From Geminicoccaceae bacterium (GTDB taxonomy: Bacteria > Pseudomonadota > Alphaproteobacteria > Geminicoccales > Geminicoccaceae), in assembly GCA_020446525.1 (NCBI GenBank), contig JAGREO010000193.1, positions 1 to 38,737 on the forward strand: 38,737 nt of DNA, read 5' to 3'. Position numbers and translations under genes: made by a program. Within the stretch, counting starts at the first letter, position 1. Each line of letters starts with the position of its first letter. Positions 5,399 through 11,418 of the stretch are shown one piece after another. The notes under the pieces are model-generated. The model made no database searches. It was not told where the DNA came from and saw only the letters and a list, made by a program, of their open reading frames with translations.

Positions 5399-7642
5399 AT
5401 GCCTTTCTCGACGTATCAGCGCGCGCGCCTGGGACATGCGGTGATCGAACCGGCGGGGCCGTTCGTCGCCGGATCGTTGCAGCATCTGGTGATCACCTAT
5501 ACCGCCGGACCCTTCGGCATCGACGATACAGGCGCGCTCAAGATCAGTTGGCGCACGGCATCGGACGCGGCGAAGCCGCAGACGAACGATCCCAAGGCCG
5601 CCAATTTCGTGAGTGCCACGGCGAGCAATGGTGCCGGCCTCTCCATCGAGTACAACCGCAACAATATACGCCCCTGGGTCAACACGCTCTTGGTGCGGGC
5701 GACCGGCGGATTCTTGCGGGTCGGCGACACGATCAGCGTCAGGCTCGGCGATCCGGCAGGCGGCTGTCCCGGTTACCGACTGCAGACCGCGGCGGAGCGG
5801 CCGTTCCCCTTCAAGGTCTTCGTCGACGCCTTTGCGACTTATGATTTCGTCGAGCTCGAAGAGAGTCCCGCCGTCGACCTCGTGCCGGGACCGGCGCGCC
5901 GCTTCAAGGCGATCCTGCCGACGCTTCGGCGGACGGGTGACAGGTTCCGCCTCGCCGTGCTCGCCGAAGACCGCTGGGGCAATCCGACGGATGAGGCCAA
6001 GGGCACCTTCCACCTGAAGTGCGACGCGCCGATCGATGGCCTGCCGGAGACGATCACGCTCGGCGACGGCCCGGCGGTGGTGGACGGGCTGTCGTCCGAC
6101 CAAGCGGCCGATCTGCGGGTCGAGGTAACGGACGAGGACGGACGCCCATGCGCGACCTCGAACCCGCTGCGCATCGCCGACGACGCATCGTTGCTGCATT
6201 ATTGGGGCGATCTGCACGGACAGTCCGGCGAAACGGTGGGAGCCGGCACGGCACGTGACTATTTCGCCTTCGCCCGCGACAGGGCGTTTCTCGACATCAC
6301 CGGACATCAGGGCAACGATTTTCAGATCGACGATGCGTTCTGGGCCGAGATCAACCGGCTCGCCGCCGAATTCGACGACCCCGGCAGGTTCACCGCCTTT
6401 CCCTCCTACGAGTGGTCCGGCAACACCGGCATGGGCGGCGACCGCAACGTTTTCTACTGCCAGCAGGACCGGCCGATCTACCGCTCATCGTCGGTACTGC
6501 TCGAGAGTCCGCACGATACCGACCGGCACCATGTGAAGGATCTCTTCGAGTCGCTCGCCGACGAGGAGGCGTTCGTGATCGCCCATGTCGGCGGTCGCTA
6601 CGCCGATCTCGGCGTCGGCCACGACGGCCGAATCGAACGGGCGGTGGAGATCCATTCCTGCTGGGGCACGTTTGAGTGGCTGCTGCACGACGCCCTGGCG
6701 CTAGGGCATCGGGTCGGCATCGTCTGCCACAGCGACGATCACAAGGGCCGACCCGGCGCGGCCTGGCCAGGCGCCGGCACCTTCGGCGCGATCGGCGGCC
6801 TGACCTGCTATCTCATGGAGCGTCTCGACCGCGAGGCGGTGTTCGAGTGTATCCGCAACCGCCGCACCTTTGGCACCACCGGCGCCCGCATCCATGTCGA
6901 TCTGCAGGCTTCCTTCGATGACGGCTGTGAGCGATTTCTCGAAGATCCGGCGCTCCTCCCACCGTCCGAGCCGGCTTCGAGCGAAAAGCAGCGGACGGCC
7001 ACCATGGGGGCCATCGTGCGCACCCGCTCGACGGAGGCCGAAATTACCGTCGAGGTTCTGGGTTCGGCGCCGATCGAGCGGCTGACCTTCTTCGACGGCC
7101 CCAAAGCCGTCGCCACCGTACGCGCCTACGACAAAGCGCAGCTCGGGCGGCGAATCAGAATCCTTTTCGAAGGCGCCGTCTATCGCGGGCGTGGCCGCGA
7201 AGTCGTCTGGCGTGGCTCGGTGCGGCTCAAAGGCGCGCGATTCTTCGACGTGCGGCCGATCAATCTTTTTCGTGCGGACAAGCCTCTCGTTCTCGCCGAC
7301 GACGGCACGCGCGTCGATTTCGACACGGTGACCACCGGCAATTTCTGCGGTTTCGATCTGTGGCTGGAGGAACGCGAACGCGGTGAAATCGAGATCGCCT
7401 CAAACGTGATCGAGCGCCACATCAAGATCGCCGACATCAGCCTCGAGGACATGGTGCTCGATGCCGGCGGACTCGGACGGCGGATGCGGCTCTTTCGTCT
7501 GCCGAACGAGAACACCCGCATGCGTGTGCACGAAACGGTCCGGCTGCCGCTGGAGCAGGGGCGTGACCATGCGCTCTATGTGCGGGTGACACAAGAGGAC
7601 GGGCATCAGGCCTGGACCAGCCCGCTTTACGTGATCGACTGA
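5399..7642 (+). CDS. DUF3604 protein (PHP-like metal-dependent hydrolase fold)
   Basis: This 747-residue protein has an N-terminal beta-rich region (1-260) and then the DUF3604 core. The core starts HYWGDLHGQSGETVGAGTA and contains DITGHQGNDFQ, FPSYEWSGNTGMGGDRNVFY, FVIAHVGGRYADLG, VEIHSCWGTFEW and IVCHSDDHKGRPG. The repeated His and Asp residues (GDLHGQ, HQGND, HVGG, HSDDH) match the metal-binding pattern of PHP-type phosphoesterases. The biochemical function of DUF3604 is not established. There is no signal peptide. The ATG follows a strong AGGGGG site. Its stop is 6 bp from the start of tctA, so the two form an operon, and a link to transported anionic substrates is likely. Confidence 0.87.
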   Translation: MPFSTYQRARLGHAVIEPAGPFVAGSLQHLVITYTAGPFGIDDTGALKISWRTASDAAKPQTNDPKAANFVSATASNGAGLSIEYNRNNIRPWVNTLLVRATGGFLRVGDTISVRLGDPAGGCPGYRLQTAAERPFPFKVFVDAFATYDFVELEESPAVDLVPGPARRFKAILPTLRRTGDRFRLAVLAEDRWGNPTDEAKGTFHLKCDAPIDGLPETITLGDGPAVVDGLSSDQAADLRVEVTDEDGRPCATSNPLRIADDASLLHYWGDLHGQSGETVGAGTARDYFAFARDRAFLDITGHQGNDFQIDDAFWAEINRLAAEFDDPGRFTAFPSYEWSGNTGMGGDRNVFYCQQDRPIYRSSSVLLESPHDTDRHHVKDLFESLADEEAFVIAHVGGRYADLGVGHDGRIERAVEIHSCWGTFEWLLHDALALGHRVGIVCHSDDHKGRPGAAWPGAGTFGAIGGLTCYLMERLDREAVFECIRNRRTFGTTGARIHVDLQASFDDGCERFLEDPALLPPSEPASSEKQRTATMGAIVRTRSTEAEITVEVLGSAPIERLTFFDGPKAVATVRAYDKAQLGRRIRILFEGAVYRGRGREVVWRGSVRLKGARFFDVRPINLFRADKPLVLADDGTRVDFDTVTTGNFCGFDLWLEERERGEIEIASNVIERHIKIADISLEDMVLDAGGLGRRMRLFRLPNENTRMRVHETVRLPLEQGRDHALYVRVTQEDGHQAWTSPLYVID

Positions 7643-7648
7643 GCGTCG

Positions 7649-9148
7649 ATGGCGGAGAACCTGCTGGCAGCACTGCATCTGGTGCTCACCTTCGAGAACC
7701 TGCTCTACGCGGCTCTGGGCATGGCAGTGGGACTGGTGTTCGGCGCCCTGCCCGGCCTGAACGGCAACGTCGCCATCGGGCTCTTGATCCCCTTCACCTA
7801 TTATCTCGACCCGATGGTCGGCATTGTCGCCTTGATGGCGATCGGCAAAGGGGCGAATTTCGGTGGTGCGGTGCCGGCCGTGCTGCTCAACATACCGGGC
7901 ACGCCGGCCGCCACCTTCACCGCAGTCGACGGCTATCAACTGACCAGGGCGGGCAAGGCGAAGAAGGCTCTGCACACGGCGCTCTGGGGCTCGACCTTGG
8001 GCGATCTGTTCAGCGATCTGGTGCTGCTTTTCGTCGCGGCACCGCTGGCGGCCATGGCACTGATGGTCGGGCCGCCCGAATATGCCGCGATCATCCTGTT
8101 TTCGCTCCTGATCGTCGGCACGATGGTCGGCGGCGCTCCGATCAAGGGTCTGCTCTCGGCGGCCTTCGGCCTGCTGCTGGGCACCGTCGGCCGCGACCTC
8201 TACACCATGGAGCCGCGCTTCACCTTCGGGTCGATCAATCTGGACGACGGCATTCCGGTGATCCCCTTGCTGATGGGCCTGCTGGTGGTGTCCGAAGTGT
8301 TCGTGCAGCTTCGCCGTGAAGCCGTCTCACCCGAGGCGATCGAGACGCGCGCGCTGAGGCTCGATCGGGGTGCGGAGCCGCTGCGCATGGCCGATCTCGC
8401 CAGACAGCTTCCGACGATCTTCAAGAGCAGCGCCATCGGGACGTTCGTCGGTGCGGTGCCGGGGCTGGGTGCCACGCTGGGTGCGTTCTTGTGCCATGCC
8501 GAGGCCAAGCGTTCGGCACCGCCGGACGAGCCCGTCGGCCGCGGCTCGCTGCGTGGCGTGGCCGCCGCCGAAGCGGGCAACAGTGCCACCAACGGCTCCA
8601 ACCTCATTCCTCTCGTGACGCTGGGCATTCCGGGCAATGTCGAGGCGGCTCTGGTGCTAGGGGCCTTCATGATCCACGGCATCACACCCGGCCCGTTCCT
8701 GATGCAGCAGCAGGGACCGATGCTCTATGCCATCTTCCTGAGCCTGATCCTGGCCAACGTCCTGTTGCTGGGTATGGGCTTCGCGTTCATCCGCATGGCC
8801 CGTCATGCGCTGAGGATCGACAAGCGTCATCTGCTGCCGGCGATCCTGTTCATGGCTTTCGTCGGCACCTACGCGACCACGCGTCAATTGTTCGACGTCG
8901 GCCTGATGTTCGTCTTCGGCATGCTCGGCTATGCGATGCGGCGGCTGGGCTTCACACCCTTGCCCCTGCTCATCGCCTTTCTTCTCGGACCGCTGTTCGA
9001 GGACGGCGTACGTCGCTCACTGACCCTCTCGGGCGGCAGTTTCTCGATCTTCTTCGAGCGACCGATCGCCATCGGCTTTCTGGCGATCGCGACGCTGGCG
9101 CTGGTGCTGATCGTCCGCCAAACGCTGGAGCGTCGAAGGCGGGCTTGA
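7649..9148 (+). CDS. tctA: tripartite tricarboxylate transporter, large membrane subunit TctA
   Basis: This 499-residue, highly hydrophobic protein has about 11-12 membrane segments and the TctA signatures: VFGALPGLNGNVAIGLLIPF near the N-terminus, LLNIPGTPAATFTAVDGYQL, and GNSATNGSNLIPLVTLGIPG in the second half. TctA is the cation-coupled permease of the TTT family. It needs the small membrane subunit TctB and the periplasmic binding protein TctC. Here tctA follows the DUF3604 gene on the plus strand. tctB and tctC lie on the opposite strand immediately downstream, with only 3 bp between the tctA and tctB stops. TctABC genes are usually co-directional, so this split is unusual. Confidence 0.95.
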   Translation: MAENLLAALHLVLTFENLLYAALGMAVGLVFGALPGLNGNVAIGLLIPFTYYLDPMVGIVALMAIGKGANFGGAVPAVLLNIPGTPAATFTAVDGYQLTRAGKAKKALHTALWGSTLGDLFSDLVLLFVAAPLAAMALMVGPPEYAAIILFSLLIVGTMVGGAPIKGLLSAAFGLLLGTVGRDLYTMEPRFTFGSINLDDGIPVIPLLMGLLVVSEVFVQLRREAVSPEAIETRALRLDRGAEPLRMADLARQLPTIFKSSAIGTFVGAVPGLGATLGAFLCHAEAKRSAPPDEPVGRGSLRGVAAAEAGNSATNGSNLIPLVTLGIPGNVEAALVLGAFMIHGITPGPFLMQQQGPMLYAIFLSLILANVLLLGMGFAFIRMARHALRIDKRHLLPAILFMAFVGTYATTRQLFDVGLMFVFGMLGYAMRRLGFTPLPLLIAFLLGPLFEDGVRRSLTLSGGSFSIFFERPIAIGFLAIATLALVLIVRQTLERRRRA

Positions 9149-9151
9149 GCG

Positions 9152-9628
9152 TCACCCGCCGAGCAGCAGGCGTTCGAGGCTGCTCGGACGGATGACGAGG
9201 CCGAAGCTCTGCTGGAACACCAGCCAGACGACGGCGAGGGTGCCGGCGCTCCAGCCCAGAAGCGGAAGCGGCCGGCGTGCACCCAGAAGCATGAACGAAA
9301 CGATCAGGGCGACGAACCCGCCCAGATAGAAACCCGTGGTGTCGATCGCCAGGGCGAAGGCGCCCCAGACCACTGCGAGAACGAGGATGTGTCCGGGCTC
9401 ACCCCCGCCGGTCTCGACGAAGGGGTCGTCGTCGGCAGGTTGCGACGTTCGATGCAGCGTCGATGCGAGCATGGCGACTGCGAGCACGCCGATCAGGACC
9501 GTATAGAGGTAGGGCAGCATCGCCTGATCGCCGCTGCCGGCGAAGCGGGGCACGAGCCACCACCACGCCAGCGCGGCGAATATGATCAGGGCCGCCGCGA
9601 CCGCCATATCGGTGCTTCGCGCAGGCAC
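9152..9628 (-). CDS. tctB: tripartite tricarboxylate transporter, small membrane subunit TctB
   Basis: This 158-residue protein has four predicted membrane helices in the order expected for TctB: one near the N-terminus (MAVAAALIIFAALAWWWL), a second at LPYLYTVLIGVLAVAML, then a hydrophilic loop (about 62-80), then two closely spaced helices. It should pair with TctA in the inner membrane. The start is GTG 9628, six bases after the tctC stop; ATG 9607 would shorten it by seven residues. It is co-transcribed with tctC and the ComA-like gene and convergent with tctA. Confidence 0.87.
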   Translation of the reverse strand: MPARSTDMAVAAALIIFAALAWWWLVPRFAGSGDQAMLPYLYTVLIGVLAVAMLASTLHRTSQPADDDPFVETGGGEPGHILVLAVVWGAFALAIDTTGFYLGGFVALIVSFMLLGARRPLPLLGWSAGTLAVVWLVFQQSFGLVIRPSSLERLLLGG

Positions 9629-9634
9629 GCCCTT

Positions 9635-10591
9635 CTATTCCTTCAGGTAGTCGCGCAACTCCTGCGCATCCTTGGTGACGCTTTGCAGCACCTCTTCATA
9701 TTCGGCCGGCTCGATCCACTGCGGAGTCAGGTCAATGGCCTTCAGTTTTTCCTGAACCGCCGGTGCTTCCACGGCGGCCTTGAAGGCGGCGCGCAGCTTC
9801 TCGAGCACGTCTGCCGGCGTATCGGCCCTGACGGCATAGCCGTAATAGACGCGGGCGACATAGTCCGCGTCGCGCTGATCGAGGCTCGGCACGTCGGGAT
9901 AGCCGAACTGTGCGAGACCGCCTGGCGTCAGGGTTGCCAGAATCTTCAGGCCGCCTTCACGGGCGGCATGCCAGGCCGAGGTGCCGACACCGGTCTCGGC
10001 GGTTGTCACGTGTCCGCCCAGGATCGCTGCCGAGCCTTCCGCACCGGAACGGAACGGTACGAGACGGATGGTGAGGTCGTGCTTCTTGGCGTAGGCCTCG
10101 ACCACGCGCGACGACCAGAAGGAGCCGCCGTCGGCGAAGGTGATGGGCGTTTCCTTGGCGTAAGCGACCATCTCCTCGAAGGTCGAGAAGGGTGCCGAAG
10201 CAGCGGCGAAGAGGACCCGTTCCTGGGGCATGTAGCCACCGACGATCGACCAGCGCGCCAGATCGAGCGGCTCGCCCTGATAGGCGGCGGTGAACGGCCC
10301 CTCGGTGAGGAAGGAGACCATCGTCTGGCCATCGGCCGGCAAGGCGTCGGTTGCCTTGATGGCGAGCAGACCGCCGGCACCGGGCTTGTTCTCGACCAGA
10401 ACCTTGGTTCCCAGTTGCGTCGCCAGTTCCTCGGCCATGATGCGCGAGGAAGTGTCGGTCATACCGCCGGCGCCGAAGCCGACCATCATGGTCACCGGCC
10501 CGTCGGGGAAACCGGCGGCCATCGCGGGTGTCGCGGTCGACGCCGCCGTCGCGATCGCGGCGGCGAGAGTGAAGAGTGTACGACGCAGCAT
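9635..10591 (-). CDS. tctC: tripartite tricarboxylate transporter substrate-binding protein TctC (Bug family)
   Basis: This 318-residue protein has a Sec signal peptide (1 to about 26, ending ATPAMAA). The Bug/TctC fold follows: FPDGPVTMMVGFGAGGMTD, then the typical VLVENKPGAGGLLAIKA and later ADTPADVLEKLRAAFKAAVE. It is the periplasmic solute receptor that feeds TctA/TctB. Bug proteins bind small carboxylates and related anions. The ligand cannot be deduced, but the ComA-like neighbour hints at a sulfonated or phosphorylated acid. ATG 10591 follows a good GGGAGG site. The gene begins 20 bp after the ComA-like stop, in one operon with tctB. Confidence 0.93.
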   Translation of the reverse strand: MLRRTLFTLAAAIATAASTATPAMAAGFPDGPVTMMVGFGAGGMTDTSSRIMAEELATQLGTKVLVENKPGAGGLLAIKATDALPADGQTMVSFLTEGPFTAAYQGEPLDLARWSIVGGYMPQERVLFAAASAPFSTFEEMVAYAKETPITFADGGSFWSSRVVEAYAKKHDLTIRLVPFRSGAEGSAAILGGHVTTAETGVGTSAWHAAREGGLKILATLTPGGLAQFGYPDVPSLDQRDADYVARVYYGYAVRADTPADVLEKLRAAFKAAVEAPAVQEKLKAIDLTPQWIEPAEYEEVLQSVTKDAQELRDYLKE

Positions 10592-10611
10592 GATAATCCT
10601 CCCTGGGTGGT

Positions 10612-11418
10612 TCATTCGCGCGGTGTGCGCTCTTTGGGCCCGACGACGCCGAGACCGCAGCGCAAGGCCTCGGTCGCCAGCAGTTCCTCCGGCTTGACGT
10701 TGGCGAGATTGACCTCGGGGCCGAGTTCGAGGATAAGCAGCTTCTTCAGGTCTTCGACCATCGAGAGCGTTGTACCGCTGATCCAGGGTCCCGGCAGCTC
10801 GATCATGACGCGGCGCATGTCGAGCTCGGCGGTGATCCGTCGCAGCATCGAGGTCGCGATCGCGCCGTCCTCGACCAGTTCGGCCGCTTCGATCAGGACC
10901 AACTCGGCGCCGGCCTCGAAGCAGACGTGCGCCTGAGCGATCAGCCGGGCGACGTCCGTTTTCTCGTCCTTGGACCCCACCTCGCCCATGACCGCGAGGC
11001 CCGCATCGGTGGCCTCGCGAACGAGCGACGCACGTTCCTGGTCGTCGATCGGCAGACAATTGTCGGAGATCTCGATCGTCGCGAAACCGAGCCTCGTGGC
11101 CTCGGTGAAGAACCGGCCCAGCGCCTTGCGACCGTGGTTCGCCAGCACATATTCCGCGAACTGGCCGCCGATGAAGGGGCGCACGGCGTGCCGTCGATAG
11201 AGATCGAGCTTGGCCGCCAACTGATCCGGCGGATAGAGGCGAGCCGTGCCGGTGACGATCTTGGCGAAATCGGCATAGGCTCCGGCCAGCGCCATCAGCC
11301 CGTCGACCGCACCCACGGTCATGCCCCAGTCGGCGATCATCGTCATGCCGGACCGGCGAGGCTTGGCCGTCGAGCGTGTGGGCGGCAGGTCGAGAAAGCC
11401 GAAGGGTGCGGACGACAA
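10612..11418 (-). CDS. ComA-like (phosphosulfolactate synthase family) protein
   Basis: This 268-residue TIM-barrel protein matches the ComA family along its length. It has SGMTMIADWGM near the N-terminus, DFAKIVTGTARLYPP, KLDLYRRHAVRPFIGGQF, FATIEISDNCLPID, GLAVMGEVGSKDEKTD, and a C-terminal NLANVKPEELLATEALRCG. Classical ComA adds sulfite to phosphoenolpyruvate to make (R)-phosphosulfolactate for coenzyme M or, in Bacillus, for spore sulfolactate. Here some positions I remember as conserved differ: IEAAELVEDG where archaeal proteins have an EARES-type segment. The reaction may therefore differ. Translation probably starts at TTG 11418, which has a perfect AGGAGG site. It heads the comA-like/tctC/tctB operon. 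Confidence 0.82.
   Translation of the reverse strand: MSSAPFGFLDLPPTRSTAKPRRSGMTMIADWGMTVGAVDGLMALAGAYADFAKIVTGTARLYPPDQLAAKLDLYRRHAVRPFIGGQFAEYVLANHGRKALGRFFTEATRLGFATIEISDNCLPIDDQERASLVREATDAGLAVMGEVGSKDEKTDVARLIAQAHVCFEAGAELVLIEAAELVEDGAIATSMLRRITAELDMRRVMIELPGPWISGTTLSMVEDLKKLLILELGPEVNLANVKPEELLATEALRCGLGVVGPKERTPRE

Follow-up and report, generated by a model that had tools for sequence, protein, structure and literature searches.

Canonical ComA adds sulfite to phosphoenolpyruvate (PEP), and its family (PF02679) includes two proteins with solved structures, MJ0255 (1QWG) and YitD (1U83). The sulfo-lyase SuyAB, which belongs to the UxaA family and is unrelated to ComA, has been identified in Cupriavidus pinatubonensis (PMC12890257). 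A tripartite tricarboxylate transporter (TTT) that imports sulfolactate, SlcHFG, is known from Roseovarius and Chromohalobacter, and the TctC receptors of such systems bind many carboxylates (PMC5812351). A literature search for DUF3604 proteins turned up a single passing mention, in a Chlamydia paper. Here we describe five adjacent genes within a 38,737-nucleotide stretch (the window; contig JAGREO010000193.1, positions 1 to 38,737) from a Geminicoccaceae bacterium of the Alphaproteobacteria (assembly GCA_020446525.1). The genes encode a DUF3604 protein, a complete TctABC transporter and a divergent ComA relative, which, together with its close relatives in other genomes, is termed ComA* below. 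The five genes probably constitute a module for organosulfur (organosulfonate) catabolism.

A preliminary description of the window had listed these five genes as adjacent, and a profile search of the window proteins recovered all of them, each above its own Pfam cut-off:

5399..7642, plus strand: DUF3604 protein of 747 amino acids (PF12228, 48.6 bits, cut-off 20.4)
7649..9148, plus strand: TctA, large membrane subunit of the tripartite tricarboxylate transporter (PF01970, E 4e-132)
9152..9628, minus strand: TctB, small membrane subunit, convergent with TctA (PF07331, E 1.2e-11)
9635..10615 (or ~10591), minus strand: TctC, periplasmic solute receptor with a signal-peptide-like N terminus (PF03401, E 2e-29)
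10612..11418, minus strand: ComA-like TIM-barrel enzyme, ComA* (PF02679, E 1e-54), with a TTG start behind AGGAGG

The genes do not form one operon. They are arranged as two convergent units whose 3′ ends lie 3 bp apart, DUF3604-TctA on the plus strand, with a spacing of 6 bp, and ComA*-TctC-TctB on the minus strand, of which ComA* is the first gene. A possible TctC ATG at 10615 overlaps the last codon of ComA* (stop, 10614-10612); the alternative ATG at 10591, behind GGGAGG, has the better ribosome site and is the likely start. The identical five genes in the identical convergent layout, together with a GntR gene, are found in a Rhodobacteraceae metagenome-assembled genome (MAG; locus L021), and in a second genome of the window's own family (G020; L008/L015) the DUF3604 gene is divergent from ComA*-TctC-TctB. 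Given these recurrences, and with a member of the DUF3604 subfamily within 10 kb of ComA* in 40 of 69 loci, the grouping is not a product of chance.

The ComA-like protein scores 185.9 bits against PF02679 (cut-off 25.2) and matches 1QWG and 1U83 in phmmer at E values of about 1e-21 to 1e-19. Its score on the NCBIfam equivalog model for archaeal ComA (TIGR03849) is 157.9 bits, below the cut-off of 280, which makes it a family relative rather than an assigned phosphosulfolactate synthase. Its identity to canonical loci is roughly 27-33%. We compared alignment columns of 75 ComA* and 12 canonical rows (MJ0255 numbering), reading the roles of single residues from conservation alone. Residues D20, K43, K60, E79, E103, S105, E133, K137, E168, E205, N224, N227 and R240 are kept in ComA*. 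Among these, K137, E133/168/205 and N224/227 are present in 72-74 of the 75 ComA* rows and 11-12 of the 12 canonical rows, with K137 and the three glutamates retained in 74 of 75, so that ComA* appears to keep the metal-enolate machinery of the family. In contrast, R170 is invariant in the canonical rows and replaced by Ala in 71 of 75 ComA* rows, S172-G173 (12/12 canonical) corresponds to alignment gaps in all 75, and G177, also 12/12, is missing. Further changes are T76 to Gln, L77 to Phe, G107 to Asn, an altered A206, and a new ELPGPWIxG segment in place of EAPxK. The lost Arg170-x-Ser172-Gly173 loop is probably the phosphate site, in which case the phosphate pocket is gone from ComA*. Loss of the loop with retention of Lys137 and Glu133/168/205 is what would be expected if the substrate no longer carries a phosphate, and phosphosulfolactate, an earlier candidate for the substrate, does not fit this pattern.

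Scanning genomes with an alignment of four rows retrieved 77 loci, the majority at 37-60% identity to the query; a scan with the single protein found none. The sample, chosen by conserved ComA patterns, consists mostly of MAGs, some on short contigs, and its hosts are Alpha-, Beta- and Gammaproteobacteria and Nitrospinota; cultured carriers include Aquabacter spiritensis DSM 9035 (L053), Xanthobacter tagetidis ATCC 700314 and Chelativorans sp. AA-79. In a maximum-likelihood tree ComA* stands apart from both the ComA of coenzyme M clusters and the Bacillus YitD-type, although branches are long and the outermost rows (L012, L013, L078 and L072) are unsurely placed. The window, L015 and L021, each with DUF3604 and TctC, form a clade (support 93). 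In a larger group of 22 rows (support 96) this clade adjoins nine betaproteobacterial loci (support 99) that have, completely or in part, suyA-suyB-sdhB-sdhC-tauE-comA*-(DUF3604 or sulfatase)-tctC; two of these loci add fumarase-like alpha and beta subunits, an SdhA-like flavoprotein and a type-2 malate/sulfolactate-type dehydrogenase. The SuyB of the betaproteobacterial loci is 82% identical to a protein encoded a few genes from hpsN and hpsO, which are dihydroxypropanesulfonate dehydrogenase genes, in C. pinatubonensis, and this match marks the loci as a genuine sulfolactate sulfo-lyase setting. SuyAB, the sulfo-lyase of the sulfolactate pathway of Cupriavidus and Paracoccus, lies with a TauE-family exporter beside ComA* in relatives of the window locus.

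The neighbourhoods of 69 ComA* and 10 canonical loci were surveyed by a family-profile search of all open frames within 10 kb, with mechanical gene calls, broad neighbour families and related loci counted separately in the tree counts. Besides the DUF3604 subfamily (40/69; 24 of the 38 loci flanked on each side by 5 kb or more), the ComA* neighbours include an S1 sulfatase in 21 loci, always on the same strand and at a median gap of 182 bp, TauD-like proteins (23), an SsuA-like receptor (19), TctC (18), SdhB-like proteins (8), SuyB (6) and TauE (6, median gap 20 bp). None of these families was found by the same search at any of the 10 canonical loci. At least one sulfur-linked family (sulfatase, TauD, SsuA-like, SuyAB, TauE or sulfotransferase) accompanies ComA* in 46 of 69 loci, against 0 of 10 canonical ones. 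DUF3604 is spread across the entire ComA* tree with 12 state changes, so its link to ComA* is not one inherited block.

Several other arrangements were seen around ComA* and its relatives. A BisC/TorA-like molybdopterin oxidoreductase lies closely downstream of ComA* in six loci, including L025, L027, L030, L031 and L072 (median gap 52 bp), which suggests that some lineages carry out a step on a sulfoxide or N-oxide. A gamma-glutamyltranspeptidase gene is found on the strand opposite to ComA* in L033, L036, L039, L041, L042, L046 and L049, several of which also have aconitase-type genes. In L047, L058, L060, L062 and L073, mostly from Nitrospinota, a sulfotransferase gene is divergent from ComA*, and most of these loci have TctC or TctABC-type genes beyond it.

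Co-occurrence was also examined across 385 alphaproteobacterial genomes, with ComA* counted from rows above 200 bits. ComA* is carried by 8 genomes, and the DUF3604 subfamily and the SdhA-like protein by 32 each. ComA* and DUF3604 overlap in 7 genomes (Fisher p 1e-7; counted by genus, 5/6 against 15/271, p 7e-6), ComA* and SdhA-like in 6 (p 5e-6), and DUF3604 and SdhA-like in 20 (p 3e-17). Set against a carriage of DUF3604 in 32 of 385 genomes, its presence at 40 of 69 ComA* loci is far from chance, also when relatedness is discounted. The co-occurrence of DUF3604, TctABC and ComA-like genes, which the preliminary description had proposed to count, therefore lies far beyond chance, and of its two suggested functions, a sulfonate or a phospho-acid module, the sulfonate one is partly supported, through the SuyAB, TauE, SsuA-like, TauD-like and sulfatase neighbours, while the phospho-acid half is unsupported, the R170-x-S172-G173 loop being lost. 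Its remark on the absence of coenzyme M and spore genes agrees with the failure to find ComB (PF04029) in the host genome (G000), which is 87% complete, so that absences there are provisional. No close SuyB was found in four of the nine ComA* genomes examined, G000, G020, G408 (100% complete) and G224 (99%), and one is present in each of the other five, indicating that ComA* and SuyAB are not mutually exclusive.

The DUF3604 protein is predicted, from its sequence and structural models, to be a PHP-type metallohydrolase with flanking beta domains. Its PHP-type motif residues (D271, H273, H303, E338, H396, H419, D446 and H448) are invariant in 18 relatives, and by inspection its N terminus contains no signal peptide, giving a cytoplasmic-looking subfamily. 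The AlphaFold2 model of the protein has a pLDDT of 86. A whole-chain Foldseek search matched nothing but Ig-like beta domains, with TM values under 0.2 even among the top matches, and for this reason the PHP part was modelled alone, at moderate confidence (pLDDT 68.9); it matched the PHP-like phosphoesterase 3e38 (E 8e-5) and then, weakly, the PHP domain of PolC. CehA/McbA and other PHP-like hydrolases share the PHP-type motifs and central-domain fold, but the window protein has extra beta domains and, at 20.6 bits, falls well short of the cut-off of 80 set for the CehA_McbA model. In L023 and L071 a sulfatase occupies the DUF3604 position between ComA* and TctC, an exchange that hints at ester hydrolysis by DUF3604. 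The host's second DUF3604 gene (C351) has no recognised partner nearby, and in Pseudosulfitobacter DUF3604 adjoins a complete TctABC without the SdhA-like set described below.

All three transporter subunits are over their cut-offs. Like SlcHFG (PMC5812351), which serves sulfonate uptake, the window system is a complete TctABC-type transporter; unlike it, its genes are split over two convergent units, and the likeness is one of kind rather than of established orthology. The window TctC is 62-65% identical to those of L021 and L015. A guess at the ligand from the receptor beside SuyAB was dropped, that TctC being too distant (~25%), and such divergence between lineages means that the imported compound may differ between loci.

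What follows on substrate type, direction, order of steps and the DUF3604 reaction is inferred from the gene set, the ComA* clade, its neighbours and the residue changes. TctABC would import a small anionic sulfo-carboxylate, which the DUF3604 metallohydrolase would process, most likely by hydrolysis. In ComA*, a metal and Lys137 would stabilise a carboxylate enolate and sulfite would be expelled (or, less likely, added). The chemistry would be that of ComA without a phosphate group, most likely run backwards, as a retro-Michael elimination assisted by Lys and Mg2+ in which sulfite leaves a beta-sulfo-carboxylate, for which 3-sulfolactate, sulfosuccinate and 3-sulfopropionate are candidates, and the products would be a central carboxylate and sulfite. 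Were sulfolactate the substrate, ComA* would be an alternative to SuyAB. With the phosphate dropped, the breakdown direction would be easier, because it would yield enolpyruvate or fumarate instead of PEP. A futile cycle of forward ComA, a DUF3604 phosphatase and SuyAB was rejected, as its net result is only PEP to pyruvate. This fuller reading, an organosulfonate module with ComA* as a carbon-sulfur enzyme acting on a non-phosphorylated sulfo-carboxylate, is put forward tentatively, at somewhat less than an even chance. The still wider proposal, of a phosphate-independent sulfo-lyase class built on a reversed ComA barrel, joined to a new PHP-hydrolase step and widespread in Alpha-, Beta- and Gammaproteobacteria and Nitrospinota, is doubtful. 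If correct, ComA* may represent a new way to cut carbon-sulfur bonds, and the automatic label "phosphosulfolactate synthase" on ComA* genes would be corrected.

A number of points weigh against the carbon-sulfur reading. The window itself is without any sulfonate-specific gene, its TctC shares only ~25% identity with the receptor found next to SuyAB in the betaproteobacterial loci, and no close SuyB was found in the 87% complete host genome, where the best matches (33-34%) belong to a paralogue. The role of the lost R170-x-S172-G173 loop in phosphate binding is deduced from conservation. TauE, SsuA-like, TauD and UxaA are broad families, and the SsuA-like receptor reaches 61 bits on TIGR01728, whose cut-off is 163. 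AcnX, aconitase or gamma-glutamyltranspeptidase genes in some ComA* loci are unexplained by the scheme. DUF3604 is often found without ComA*; in L146 and L147 (G331 and G408), for example, it occurs with a TauE-family gene near what look by eye like TcuA and TcuB, of tricarballylate oxidation.

Organosulfur catabolism could also be the right setting with ComA* neither cutting nor forming the carbon-sulfur bond. It might be an isomerase, a hydratase or some other enolate enzyme whose substrate is a sulfated or sulfonated acid, and a sulfatase, TauD, SuyAB or another enzyme would remove the sulfur. The S1 sulfatase is the closest steady partner of ComA*, and its occupation of the DUF3604 position in L023 and L071 points to sulfate or phosphate esters; beside SuyAB, in several betaproteobacterial loci, a second sulfo-lyase would be redundant; and T76, L77, G107, A206 and the EAPxK region have changed along with the loop. 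The kept Lys137/Glu set of ComA argues instead for the same first chemical step, and the four genomes without close SuyB, including the near-complete or complete G224 and G408, would need another means of desulfonation. We regard this explanation as rather unlikely, if the most substantial of the alternatives. ComA* might otherwise be synthetic, capturing sulfite freed by SuyAB or TauD on an unsaturated acid, for sulfite detoxification or sulfonate synthesis. The canonical direction of ComA and the adjoining TauE-family exporters are consistent with such a role, but ComA* is surrounded by importers and by GntR/LysR regulators of the sort usually seen in catabolic operons, the window encodes an importer but nothing that obviously supplies sulfite, and the genome has no ComB-type finishing phosphatase; a synthetic ComA* is improbable.

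Sulfur may not be involved at all if the locus takes up a plain carboxylate resembling citrate, tricarballylate or a hydroxyacid and both DUF3604 and ComA* act on carboxylates. The breadth of TctC ligands (PMC5812351), the TcuAB look-alikes near DUF3604 in L146/L147 and the aconitase and AcnX genes of some ComA* loci would all suit this explanation; the sulfur-linked genes in 46 of 69 ComA* loci, with none at the control loci, and the grouping of the window clade with SuyAB operons speak against it and leave it unlikely. That ComA* is a canonical phosphosulfolactate synthase serving coenzyme M or spore sulfolactate formation is very improbable. The PF02679 match and the resemblance to the solved MJ0255 and YitD structures place the protein in the family, whereas the equivalog score (158 against 280 bits), the loss of R170 and S172-G173 and the lack of ComB led us to reject this identification, and the clade is separate from XcbC- and YitD-type loci. 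ComA* also differs from canonical ComA in its ELPGPWIxG segment, its lack of a spore context and its catabolic neighbours.

The genes flanking the five-gene group, an OmpA-family gene upstream and, downstream, a sub-threshold DUF1554 match and DNA polymerase I, look unrelated to it. Elsewhere in the host genome, contig C286 (L182, 8311-11689) carries an SdhA-like protein (69%) and fumarase-like genes, the only members identified there of an extra set resembling succinate dehydrogenase (SDH; sdhBDCA, 37% identical to the housekeeping SDH) and class I fumarase (fumAB). The set is also found in L169 (6007-16528), L170, L173 and L175, and repeatedly accompanies SuyAB, TauE and dehydrogenases of the SlcC/ComC type. 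It occurs without ComA* on a Methylobacterium plasmid, with SuyAB, TauE and SlcC/ComC-type dehydrogenases, in Paracoccus and Sulfitobacter, with TauE and TTT genes, and in Sulfitobacter sp. S190, where it adjoins DUF3604 and TctABC. By analogy with succinate, the set suggests conversion of 3-sulfopropionate to sulfoacrylate and then sulfolactate, a route that PMC11489063 mentions with reference to a thesis on Roseovarius nubinhibens; the paper describes bacterial 3-sulfopropionate degradation as previously unreported. The SDH-like and fumarase-like genes with SuyAB and TauE make up a concrete candidate gene set for 3-sulfopropionate breakdown through sulfoacrylate and sulfolactate. A "fumarate and tartrate" cluster that includes a TauE homologue increases when Paracoccus wurundjeri grows on sulfofucose (PMC12421959), and we suspect from its description that this is the same kind of set.

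More distant ComA relatives are found on plasmids. On an Arthrobacter plasmid (L012, 8275-14115) a relative with 34% identity lies between a CocE/NonD hydrolase gene and thioredoxin reductase and thioredoxin genes, beyond which are a hypothetical gene and then a UGSC (seleno)protein gene. A Bradyrhizobium plasmid (L013, 2325-7786) carries a relative of ~30% identity after MmgE/PrpD and PrpF genes and near TctC, possibly another catabolic offshoot of the ComA family. In Legionella lytica (L014, 3865-7493) a plasmid-encoded protein of 970 residues, annotated as phosphosulfolactate synthase, has its ComA part at the C terminus and adjoins genes for 2-phosphosulfolactate phosphatase and an aminotransferase. 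On a plasmid of Natrinema halophilum (L174, 5418-21398) DUF3604 and a ComA relative are ~13 kb apart, with a putative sulfate exporter between them.

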